Below are positions 1-28,809 of a DNA stretch of 64,000 nt, in pieces (within the stretch, counting starts at the first letter, position 1; each line of letters begins with the position of its first letter). Origin of the DNA: Paracoccaceae bacterium (GTDB lineage Bacteria; Pseudomonadota; Alphaproteobacteria; Rhodobacterales; Rhodobacteraceae); the NCBI GenBank assembly GCA_021741245.1, contig JAIOYF010000003.1, positions 248,001 through 312,000 of the forward strand, given 5' to 3'. The position numbers were made by a program, and so were the translations under genes. Below the pieces are notes generated by a model. The model had not been told where the DNA came from and did not search any database. It worked only from the letters and a program-made list of their open reading frames with translations.

Positions 1-435
1 CTGAACAGCTTGCCGCCGTCAGTGACCAGCCCCGTCTTTTCAAAAAACGTGTCCGAGATGGCCGCAACGGTGCCCGGACGGCCGGGTGGCGACCAGCCCG
101 AGGCGAAGGGCGCGCCACAAGATGCGCCTTTGGATGGCATCCGAAATACCGGCGTAGCCAGCCACAACCCTGTCCTTTGGCCGTTGCAAATTGACCCGGT
201 CGCCGTGCATGCCGCCGTGTTGATCGCGCAAGAAACCTATCGCAATCAAAGGGCACTGGAGGGTTTGGCCGTGCTTATGCAGGCGGGCTTGGTGCTGAAT
301 GTGCCGCCGGGGCAGGCGGCAGACAGGGTCGCTGCGCGCAATGACGTGCGCCCGGTCTCAACAGCCGATAAACGTCGGGATCATGGCGATGGCCGATCGT
401 CGTAGCTGTCGTTTTGGCGCGGCGGGCATCGTTTC
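1..435. other. Unresolved left edge, overlapping partial ORFs
   Basis: Two competing open frames cover this stretch and I cannot choose between them. A plus-strand frame is open from the window edge to a stop at 403-405 and could be the C-terminal end of an upstream gene. A minus-strand frame is open from an ATG at 138-140 leftwards off the window, and its last visible residues (ISDTFFEKTGLVTDGGKLF) look protein-like. Neither matches a family I recognise. Genes next to ScfR/RamB-type regulators in related bacteria are often isocitrate lyase or propionyl-CoA carboxylase, but neither is visible here. The sequence left of base 1 would settle it. Confidence 0.3.
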
Positions 436-14517: not shown

Positions 14518-14593
14518 GCCTCTATAGCTCAGCTGGTAGAGCACCTGATTTGTAATCAGGGGGTCGCGGGTTCAAATCCTGCTGGGGGCACCA
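14518..14593 (+). tRNA. tRNA-Thr (anticodon UGU)
   Basis: A full 76-base cloverleaf. The seven-pair acceptor stem is closed by GCCTCTA and TGGGGGC (two G-T pairs). The D arm contains AGCTGGTAGAG. The anticodon arm is CCTGA-TTTGTAA-TCAGG with anticodon TGT, and the T arm is GCGGG-TTCAAAT-CCTGC. The discriminator is A14590 and the CCA end (14591-14593) is encoded. It reads ACA (and related) threonine codons. It is followed by a strong terminator. Confidence 0.95.
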
Positions 14594-26225: not shown

Positions 26226-26786
26226 TCAGAGACCGCGCGCCAAGGCCGCAACCCCGGTCCGGGCAATCTCGCGCAGGCCAAGCGGGCGCATCAATTCGGC
26301 AAAGGCGTCAATCTTCTCGGGCGTGCCGGTCATCTCGAACACAAAGCTTTCCAACGTGCTGTCGACCACATTGGCGCGGAAAATCTCGGCCAGACGCAGC
26401 GCCTCGATCCGCGCATCTCCCTTGCCCGCCACCTTGAACAGCGCCAATTCCCGCTGCACCGACGGGCCCTCTTCGGTCAGGTCATGCACCTGACGCACCG
26501 GCACCATGCGCGCCAACTGCGCTTTGATCTGTGCAATCACCTGTGGCGTGCCGCGCGTGACAACAGTGATCCGGCTCAGATGCCCGGTATGATCCACCTC
26601 GGCCACGGTCAGGCTGTCGATGTTATAGCCCCGCCCCGAAAACAGCCCGATCACGCGGGCCAGAACGCCCGGCTCGTTCTCGACAATCACGGCCAGAGTA
26701 TGCGCCTCGATCACCTCTGCATTGGGGTCACGCAGATCATAGGCAGAATGGCTGCTGGAGCCCTTTTTGATATTGAGCGGCGACAT
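26226..26786 (-). CDS. ilvH: Acetolactate synthase small (regulatory) subunit
   Basis: A 186-residue protein with an N-terminal ACT domain (about residues 27-100; VIVENEPGVLARVIGLFSGRGYNID) and the C-terminal domain of acetolactate synthase small subunits. It binds valine and confers feedback inhibition on the catalytic subunit encoded upstream. The gap from ilvI is 81 bases and contains a GC-rich hairpin. The operon is controlled by the attenuator upstream of ilvI. Confidence 0.95.
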   Translation of the reverse strand: MSPLNIKKGSSSHSAYDLRDPNAEVIEAHTLAVIVENEPGVLARVIGLFSGRGYNIDSLTVAEVDHTGHLSRITVVTRGTPQVIAQIKAQLARMVPVRQVHDLTEEGPSVQRELALFKVAGKGDARIEALRLAEIFRANVVDSTLESFVFEMTGTPEKIDAFAELMRPLGLREIARTGVAALARGL

Positions 26787-26867: not shown

Positions 26868-28622
26868 TCACACCAGAACAGCGCCTTTCGCGCCAATCAC
26901 CCCTTGGGTATCGGCATCGCCCAACAACATCTCATTGTGCGGCCTGCCAGATGGGATCATGGGGAAGCAGTTTTCATGCTTTGCCACAAGGCAATCAAAG
27001 ATCACCGGGCCGTCATAGCGGATCATCTCCATGATGGCGTCATCCAGATCCTTGGGGTCTGACACCCGGATCCCCTTGCAGCCAAAGGCCTCGGCCAGTT
27101 TGACGAAATCGGGCAGCGATTCCGACCAGCTGTGCGAATAGCGCTCGCCATGCAGCAATTCTTGCCACTGGCGCACCATGCCAAGGCGTTCGTTGTTCAA
27201 GATGAACTGCTTGACGGGCGCGCGGAACTGCATGGCCGTGCCCATCTCTTGCATGTTCATCAGCCACGATGCCTCGCCCGCCACGTTGATCACCAGCGCC
27301 TCCGGGTGGGCGATCTGCACGCCGATGCTGGCGGGCAGGCCATAGCCCATCGTGCCCAAGCCACCGCTTGTCATCCAGCGGTTCGGCCCCTCAAACCCAA
27401 GGAACTGCGCCGCCCACATCTGGTGCTGGCCGACTTCGGTGGTGATATAGCGATCCATCCCCTTGGTCAGCGCTTCCAGACGCTGCAGGGCATGCTGGGG
27501 CTTGATCACCTTGTCTGTGTTGTTGAACGACAGGCAGTCAACCGCGCGCCATTCGTTGATCTGTTTCCACCACTTGGCCAGCCCCTCGTTGTTGAGCTTG
27601 CGGCCACGCGCGGTCCAGACCTGCAGCAGGTCTTCCAGAACCGATGCCACATCACCAAGGATCGGCACATCGACATGGATCACCTTGTTGATCGAGGACG
27701 CGTCGATATCGATATGCGCTTTTCTGGAGCCGGGGCTGAAATCCTTGATCCGCCCGGTGATGCGGTCATCAAACCGCGCACCGATGTTGATCATGAGATC
27801 ACAGCCATGCATGGCAAGGTTGGCCTCGTAAAGACCATGCATCCCCAGCATGCCCAGCCAATTCTTGCCGCTTGCCGGATAGGCGCCCAGACCCATCAGG
27901 GTGGAGGTGACGGGAAAGCCGGTCGCCTCGGCCAGATCACGCAGCAATTGGCTGGCGCGCGGGCCCGAGTTGATCACGCCGCCGCCGGTGTACAAGATGG
28001 GGCGTTCGGCCGTCTCCAGCATCTCGACCAGACGGGTGATCTGTTCAATATCCCCCTTCACGCGCGGCTGGTAATGGCTGACCTTGATCTTTTCGATCTG
28101 CGTATAGGTGCCGGTGGCAAATTGAACATCTTTGGGGATGTCGATCAGCACGGGGCCGGGGCGACCGGAGGTTGCCACATGAAAGGCCTGATGGATGGTT
28201 TCCGACAATTTGTCGGTGTCCTTGACCAGCCAGTTCATCTTTGTGCAAGGCCGGGTGATGCCCACCGTGTCGGCCTCTTGAAAGCCATCGGTGCCGATCA
28301 TGAACGTGGGCACCTGACCGGTCAACACGACCAGCGGAATGCTGTCCATCAGCGCGTCAACAAGGCCGGTTACGGCATTGGTCGCGCCGGGACCCGAGGT
28401 CACCAGAACCACGCCGGGTTTCCCGGTTGAGCGTGCATAGCCCTCGGCCATATGCACCGCACCCTGTTCGTGCCGAACGAGGATGTGGCGGATGTCGTTT
28501 TGCTGAAAGATCTCGTCATAGATCGGAAGTACTGCGCCGCCCGGATAGCCGAACACCACGTCGACGCCCTGATCCTTAAGCGCCTTCACCACCATCGCCG
28601 CACCGGTCATCGTATTCGTCAT
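26868..28622 (-). CDS. ilvI: Acetolactate synthase large (catalytic) subunit
   Basis: A 584-residue TPP-dependent enzyme that makes acetolactate or acetohydroxybutyrate, the first common step to valine, leucine and isoleucine. It shows the cofactor-activating Glu in VRHEQGAVHMAEGYAR and the FAD/central domain. The C-terminal TPP/Mg region is GEASWLMNMQEMGTA with ILNNERLGM; the usual GDG start reads GEA, a variation I know from other alphaproteobacterial enzymes. The start ATG at 28622 lies about 30 bases after the attenuator. It is co-transcribed with ilvH. Confidence 0.95.
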   Translation of the reverse strand: MTNTMTGAAMVVKALKDQGVDVVFGYPGGAVLPIYDEIFQQNDIRHILVRHEQGAVHMAEGYARSTGKPGVVLVTSGPGATNAVTGLVDALMDSIPLVVLTGQVPTFMIGTDGFQEADTVGITRPCTKMNWLVKDTDKLSETIHQAFHVATSGRPGPVLIDIPKDVQFATGTYTQIEKIKVSHYQPRVKGDIEQITRLVEMLETAERPILYTGGGVINSGPRASQLLRDLAEATGFPVTSTLMGLGAYPASGKNWLGMLGMHGLYEANLAMHGCDLMINIGARFDDRITGRIKDFSPGSRKAHIDIDASSINKVIHVDVPILGDVASVLEDLLQVWTARGRKLNNEGLAKWWKQINEWRAVDCLSFNNTDKVIKPQHALQRLEALTKGMDRYITTEVGQHQMWAAQFLGFEGPNRWMTSGGLGTMGYGLPASIGVQIAHPEALVINVAGEASWLMNMQEMGTAMQFRAPVKQFILNNERLGMVRQWQELLHGERYSHSWSESLPDFVKLAEAFGCKGIRVSDPKDLDDAIMEMIRYDGPVIFDCLVAKHENCFPMIPSGRPHNEMLLGDADTQGVIGAKGAVLV

Positions 28623-28650: not shown

Positions 28651-28679
28651 CAAAAAGCCCCCGGGGGTGATCCGAGGGC
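28651..28679 (-). terminator. Intrinsic terminator (attenuator) upstream of ilvI
   Basis: On the minus strand GCCCTCGG (28679-28672) pairs with CCGGGGGC (28664-28657), including one G-T pair, around a seven-base loop, and is followed by five T residues. It lies between the leader peptide and ilvI. Its 5' arm overlaps the arm of an alternative stem (28677-28686 with 28712-28721), the antiterminator. Confidence 0.85.
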
Positions 28680-28721
28680 GCATGGGAACCTTTATGGTCA
28701 ACCGTTACCGGCCCATGCGCC
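28677..28721 (-). promoter_or_regulatory. Antiterminator stem of the ilv leader
   Basis: GGCGCATGGG and CCCATGCGCC form a perfect ten-base inverted repeat (28677-28686 with 28712-28721). One arm lies within the end of the leader peptide. The other overlaps two to three bases of the terminator 5' arm and abuts the rest. The two stems should therefore be mutually exclusive, as in classical amino acid attenuation. Confidence 0.75.
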
Positions 28722-28752
28722 AAATCTCCCCAAGTACGAGAATGTGCAGCAT
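28705..28752 (-). CDS. ilvL: ilv operon leader peptide
   Basis: A 15-codon ORF, MLHILVLGEIWRMGR, on the minus strand with GAGGGGG upstream of its ATG at 28752. Six of its 15 residues are Leu, Ile or Val, including the run ILVL. These are the end products of the pathway encoded downstream. Ribosome stalling at these codons would free the antiterminator arm, and smooth translation would let the terminator form. It is too short for usual gene callers. I use the symbol ilvL by analogy of function and position, not homology. Confidence 0.85.
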   Translation of the reverse strand: MLHILVLGEIWRMGR

Positions 28753-28780
28753 TGCCGCCCCCTCTGACCCTACGGTGGGC

Positions 28781-28809
28781 AAACTATGGCGCAGCTATGG
28801 GGTCGTCAA
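28781..28809 (-). promoter_or_regulatory. Sigma-70-type promoter of ilvL-ilvI-ilvH
   Basis: On the minus strand TTGACG (28809-28804) and TAGTTT (28786-28781) are separated by exactly 17 bases. The predicted transcript would start near 28774, about 22 bases before the leader peptide ATG. Confidence 0.65.

Follow-up and report, generated by a model that had tools for sequence, protein, structure and literature searches.

A predicted branched-chain leader-peptide attenuator before ilvIH, conserved in its alphaproteobacterial family, and related leaders before efflux transporters

We present here a leader upstream of ilvIH that is very probably a ribosome-mediated transcription attenuator of this operon, located on the minus strand of a 64,000-nucleotide stretch of Rhodobacteraceae DNA (the window). 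Comparison of sequences indicates that the leader peptide and its RNA switch are widely conserved in the window's family, and through them the synthesis of valine, leucine, and isoleucine is probably adjusted to supply. A short leader ORF has clustered product codons in its predicted translation, and an intrinsic terminator lies between the leader and the first gene; since Ile/Leu/Val control codons and a terminator thus precede ilvIH, we infer attenuation by branched-chain amino-acid supply. The position before ilvI, the Ile/Leu/Val codons, and the conservation in alphaproteobacteria are those of an alphaproteobacterial ilvIH attenuator. At 15 residues the peptide is under usual gene-calling limits, and recognizing it adds a leader and a control switch to ilvIH, which is useful for annotation and for studies of branched-chain amino-acid synthesis.

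Vitreschak et al. reportedly described, in 2004, a leader-peptide element before ilvIH/ilvB in alphaproteobacteria, which is like that of the window in operon, bacterial class, leader peptide, and position before ilvI. A sequence-only reading of the window had called the leader peptide new; because ilvIH leader attenuation is described for alphaproteobacteria in passages of three papers, the element belongs instead to an already known kind. These passages refer to an ilvB leader peptide in alphaproteobacteria (PMC1273637, citing Vitreschak et al. 2004), an ilvIH cis-regulatory element in Sinorhizobium (PMC2573895, citing the same 2004 source), and attenuation of Caulobacter ilvIH via an upstream leader ORF (PMC4117421, citing Tarleton et al. 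1994). As described in the last passage (PMC4117421), the Caulobacter crescentus ilvBN/ilvIH leader resembles that of the window in its tandem Ile and Val codons, its terminator, and the operon attenuated.

The features of the window are as follows, in the order in which they would be transcribed.

28781..28809, minus strand: sigma-70-like promoter of the leader, TTGACG-N17-TAGTTT (read directly; recurs in relatives)
28809-28804, minus strand: promoter hexamer TTGACG, then a 17-nt spacer
28786-28781, minus strand: promoter hexamer TAGTTT (read directly)
28705..28752, minus strand: leader ORF MLHILVLGEIWRMGR and stop, ATG at 28752, TAA at 28707-28705 (conservation, frame, and codon evidence)
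28712..28721, minus strand: 5' arm of predicted stem P1, GGCGCATGGG, within leader codons 11-14 (fold and alignment)
28702..28711, minus strand: predicted inner hairpin P2, CCG-GUAA-CGG, with the leader stop UAA in its loop (MFE fold, alignment)
28687..28699, minus strand: predicted inner hairpin P3, GACC-AUAAA-GGUU, closing a three-way junction (MFE fold; weak in the alignment)
28677..28686, minus strand: 3' arm of predicted stem P1, CCCATGCGCC (fold and alignment)
28652..28679, minus strand: predicted intrinsic terminator, 8-pair stem and T5 (terminator scan, covariation)
26868..28622, minus strand: ilvI, acetolactate synthase large subunit, 584 aa, the presumed regulated gene (Pfam TPP_enzyme_N, M, and C)
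26226..26786, minus strand: ilvH, acetolactate synthase regulatory subunit, next after ilvI (Pfam ALS_ss_C and ACT)

Direct reading thus places the promoter, leader ORF, stem, terminator, and ilvI where the sequence-only reading had put them and in the same order. The leader has 15 sense codons with the control run Ile4-Leu5-Val6-Leu7. The terminator arms lie at 28679-28672 and 28664-28657, with T5 at 28656-28652, and the ilvI start codon (ATG at 28622) is 3' of the terminator. P1, earlier described as a perfect ten-base antiterminator stem, indeed consists of ten perfect pairs (28721-28712 with 28686-28677); the word antiterminator is an interpretation. Its claimed overlap with the terminator is true but small, namely the three bases 28679-28677, which are the terminator's first three. 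The attenuators of Escherichia coli ilvGMEDA, ilvBN, leu, and trp likewise comprise a leader peptide, control codons, and a terminator; in these, however, the antiterminator and terminator share most of an arm.

That the leader is more than a chance arrangement follows from conservation, and single-sequence statistics give no such support. A generic promoter scan of the sequence reported no promoter, that of the leader included; a generic terminator scan found one terminator versus a mean of 1.1 in shuffled sequences; and the leader fold is mildly more stable than shuffles (z of -1.61, with 11 of 200 shuffles as stable). A described riboswitch or T-box was considered for the ilvI leader and rejected, there being no gathering-level match to either in Rfam 15; the sole gathering-level match in the whole window was a tRNA at 14518-14590.

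IlvI was present in 85 of 101 sampled genomes. The family sample comprised 61 genomes, from 57 of which 58 ilvI upstream regions were examined (G007 and G012 gave no match, in G010 the 5' end was missing, and G036 did not contribute a region; the element was found in G036 by a later RNA-model search). By an automatic criterion, 54 of the 58 regions contain an ORF in which four or more of six codons are Ile/Leu/Val, a weaker leader ORF is present in L022 and L033, and none is found in L048 and L057, so that the proposed check for relatives with ilvI but without the ORF came out favorably within the family. Most family leaders have 15 residues and the C-terminal end RMGR. The promoter recurs as well: of 56 rows including the window, 54 have TTGACN-16..18-TANNNN no more than 90 nt before the leader start, where shuffles lead one to expect 0.3, and it stands mostly 23-33 nt before the start codon. 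At L048, one of the two leaderless family loci, a promoter-like TTGACC-TAGTTT stretch was seen by eye near ilvI.

The 4-in-6 criterion is unspecific, as some unrelated ilvI upstream regions outside the family also pass it, and other tests therefore matter. At codons 12 to 7 before the stop, Ile/Leu/Val occupy 241/332 positions in frame versus 45/332 and 6/332 in the other frames. Across loci L001-L030, the Val codon GTA makes up 39/60 in leaders versus 33/1381 (2.4%) in ilvI, the Ile codon ATT 23/36 versus 7.9%, and the Leu codon CTA 5/59 versus 0.6%. Judged by this frame and codon evidence, the leader ORF is coding-like, with strong use of rare codons. These results bear on the reading in which a constitutive terminator merely accompanies a chance ORF and no amino acid is sensed. 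The weak single-sequence statistics and the 4-in-6 ORFs before some non-family ilvI genes fit that reading, but the frame-specific enrichment with its rare-codon bias and the matches of an RNA model in most family genera (given below) go against it, and we regard it as highly improbable.

The RNA model was built from 47 of the 56 leader rows (alignment A1), with nine divergent rows left out. The terminator is supported by covariation: 96.0% of its cells are paired, four of its eight pairs are changed on both sides, and its covariation score is reached in 0 of 500 shuffles. Over 44 distinct rows, P1 has 95.0% paired cells; its outermost pair is lost in 18 of them, and no pair is changed on both sides; the score for P1, P2, and P3 together was equalled or exceeded by 68 of 500 shuffles. 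Compensatory changes, which had been proposed as a check on both stems, were thus found for the terminator but not for P1. Since P1 is without covariation support, the evidence for it consists of its conservation and, for four of the nine divergent rows, of a replacement stem. By the contiguous-helix test, the replacements have 11 pairs in L084 (p = 0.022), 11 in L055 (p = 0.030), and 10 in L049 (p = 0.008, hand-chosen search segment); that of L069 has 12 pairs, with 9 of 500 shuffles equally long (computed separately). This test was used instead of an uninformative duplex-energy test of the stem against shuffles, in which p = 0.01 was reached in 9 of 45 usual-stem rows and in 0 of 10 rows without that stem (L069 left out). 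It gave p ≤ 0.05 in 43 of 55 rows and p ≤ 0.01 in 13 of 55; L022, L039, L050, L054, and L056 were above 0.05, as was L025, which is in A1. The three pairs of P2 are kept in 43-45 of the 47 aligned rows and by eye are replaced by different pairing sequences in L029, L021, and L053, while P3 is weak (55.4% of cells paired in the alignment).

At E up to 1e-4, matches to the RNA model occur in 167 of 198 family genomes and in 166 of 197 genera, counted by model score and not by ilvI downstream, so that a few weak matches (e.g., G016, G019, and G023) may be transporter copies. Matching genomes that gave training rows number 35, and among family genomes without a training row the model matches 132 of 163. 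In a 217-kb search at E < 0.01, the model trained on A1 recovers six of the nine left-out rows (L022, L039, L049, L050, L056, and L084, the others being L054, L055, and L069), and the leaderless rows L048 and L057 were both unmatched. In the window's genome no second copy was found at E < 0.1, and the window copy alone passes 1e-4. Outside the family, no RMG-type leader is visible in 25 ilvI upstream regions, and the CGCATGGG motif occurs in none of 28 ilvI upstream regions from the order of G167 (one of which, L235, starts inside the gene); named Rhizobiales carry a CGCATGGG-type leader before ilvI. The exact P1 pattern was found in at least 117 stretches of named genomes. Among the 117 listed, 87 have the leader and a downstream ilvI, 6 the leader and an MFS transporter, 1 the leader and an ABC transporter, 1 ends with its contig, and 22 are leaderless. 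In L208-L224, which belong to the order of G167, ilvI often comes after what by eye is a promoter-like stretch with a GC-rich hairpin, no leader peptide being visible; this is possibly another control element.

In the proposed mechanism, an ample supply of Ile, Leu, and Val would let the leading ribosome proceed to the stop codon and cover the 5' arm of P1, upon which the terminator would form and transcription would end near 28652. When branched-chain aminoacyl-tRNA is short, the ribosome would stall on Ile4 to Leu7; P1 would then form first, termination would fail, and ilvIH would be transcribed. For the window and most members of its genus, a longer pairing, which includes bases of the terminator, would form alongside P1. 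The mechanism was examined by equilibrium folding of the RNA left free by a ribosome at successive codons, with an assumed 12-nt footprint. For the window, the terminator probability is 0.00-0.02 with the first free nucleotide at leader offsets 9-21, rises to 0.87 from offset 24, and reaches 1.0 once the ribosome sits at the stop; with the assumed footprint, offset 21 corresponds to a stall with Ile4 in the A site. Because terminator probability goes from low to high with ribosome position, the window has a predicted switch, and in the model it is the longer pairing, from leader codons into the terminator, that makes it. Across the 56-row set (which includes L069, folded with the wrong T-run), the terminator probability falls by over 0.5 in nine rows when the stall is at the first control codon, and all nine are among the 13 rows of the window's genus; exclusion there is accordingly predicted for the window itself and for 8 of the 12 congeners included. 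For a stall at the last one, exclusion is predicted in 0 of 56 rows, with a median terminator probability of 0.994 and a mean of 0.959, no different from the 0.960 of a control with a shuffled leader arm. The earlier claim that ribosome stalling tunes ilv by branched-chain supply thus keeps its control-codon leader and its terminator before ilvIH, but the simple picture in which the stem excludes the terminator is not supported. This leaves two explanations, one in which the order of folding during transcription is decisive and one in which the junction acts by other means.

A related RNA is already on file. The best sub-threshold Rfam match of the window leader is RF02502, Atu_C8 (20.5 bits, E of 0.22); the cut-off is 50 bits, so that the leader falls below the gathering score for membership while being related in layout. 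The two are alike in layout, in the GCGCAUGGGC/CCCAUGCGC stem, and in an RMG-coding 5' arm, whereas the Rhizobiales leaders have a longer C-terminus and their stem and terminator are separated. The RF02502 consensus, taken from its alignment, reads as the ORF MIILVVGPRMGR, the third base of one Val codon not being displayed in that alignment. All 14 stretches given to Rfam (13 with the exact P1 pattern, and L085) scored above the Atu_C8 cut-off. Seven are ilvI leaders, from Agrobacterium (L104), Rhizobium (L094), a Rhizobiales isolate (L112), Sinorhizobium (L116), Ochrobactrum (L146), Phyllobacterium (L113), and Aminobacter (L139), and seven are transporter leaders (L085, L102, L114, L134, L157, L160, and L178). 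Because gathering-level matches coincide with Rhizobiales ilvI leaders and with the leader ORF, Atu_C8, filed as a "Rhizobiales sRNA," appears from genomic position and coding content to be this ilvIH attenuator; a curated RNA family named as an sRNA would then be an attenuator. A literature search on Atu_C8 found nothing relevant.

Two further readings were considered. In one, to which we assign an appreciable but minority probability, the P1-P2-P3 junction with its stop codon acts without excluding the terminator, for example as a pause hairpin that couples the ribosome to the polymerase, or as an obstacle to terminator formation within the exit channel. It agrees with the coexistence of P1 and terminator at equilibrium in most rows, with the junction with the stop codon in a loop, recognized by eye in both Rhodobacterales and Rhizobiales, and with a terminator that begins several bases past P1 in the 12 rows displayed of 39 Rhizobiales-type leaders. 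In those 39 the median terminator probability is 0.999 whether P1 is free or masked. Equilibrium folding, however, disregards folding order during transcription, and in 54 Rhodobacterales-type leaders free P1 does lower the median, to 0.888 from 0.999 with the ribosome past the stop. Leaders for this comparison were picked by the exact stem pattern, the Rhizobiales type by peptide C-terminus and with transporter leaders included.

In the other reading, the terminated leader RNA or its peptide would also act in trans, as is reported for the Sinorhizobium trp leader, peTrpL (PMC7298713). Such a role would explain conservation of the stem sequence beyond that of its pairing: GCGCAUGGG and CCCAUGCGC are near-invariant across the 47 aligned family rows. 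The peTrpL precedent and the classing of the Rhizobiales version as an sRNA in Rfam point the same way, but the sequence is replaced in some divergent relatives (L084 and L069) and the location before ilvI speaks for a cis role first, so that we consider action in trans improbable.

Attenuation of ilvIH may be one use of a more widespread device. When 385 genomes from across the class were searched with the model trained on ilvI leaders, 17 matched (E up to 1e-4). The five family matches (the window and L241-L244) are all before ilvI, and 11 of the 12 non-family matches (L245-L255, from ten families) lie directly before a transporter gene whose product is 39-52% identical to that of L134. The twelfth, L256, resembles a plain terminator. 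Of six transporters tested, five pass the NCBIfam Bcr/CflA cut-off and the sixth is short by one bit; the leader stands directly before Bcr/CflA-like MFS transporters in L245-L255, L257, L259, L262, L085, L114, L134, L157, L159, L160, and L178. An Atu_C8-type leader, MKTALMVVIGRMGRMV, also stands before a putative ABC transporter gene (named by eye) in Sinorhizobium sp. A49 (L102:1141-1260). In the 22 transporter leaders (21 MFS and 1 ABC), Ile/Leu/Val occupy 77/154 in-frame positions versus 12 and 6 in the other frames, and GTA makes up 19 of 78 Val codons, counted without background frequency. The middle of P1 is mismatched by eye in several.

Taking these together, we lean slightly towards a joint reading in which the ilvI attenuator belongs to a wider alphaproteobacterial RNA and leader-peptide family that has been reused to control Bcr/CflA-type transporters, with Atu_C8 as its Rhizobiales branch. 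If so, these transporters would carry leaders of about 15 codons, mostly Val-rich and with the stop codon placed in a hairpin loop, through which ribosome stalling would set pump expression in response to valine supply or to translation-blocking drugs. The same device before transporters in ten alphaproteobacterial families beyond the window's raises the question of what a valine-rich leader senses for a pump. Within our literature searches on leaders before such transporters, no description was recognized; PMC12218461 concerns another leader.

The leader is a facultative companion of the transporter. In 240 class genomes, six of the ten best transporter relatives carry it, the query included, and four lack it; of 20 family transporter loci examined, the window genome's own included, only three have it, and it was not seen at the window genome's own relative of the transporter gene (L270). 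At L134, L157, and L160, the spacing from a TTGACG-type promoter, judged by eye, suggests a transcription start at or beside the start codon, so that these Rhizobiales-type leaders would be leaderless.
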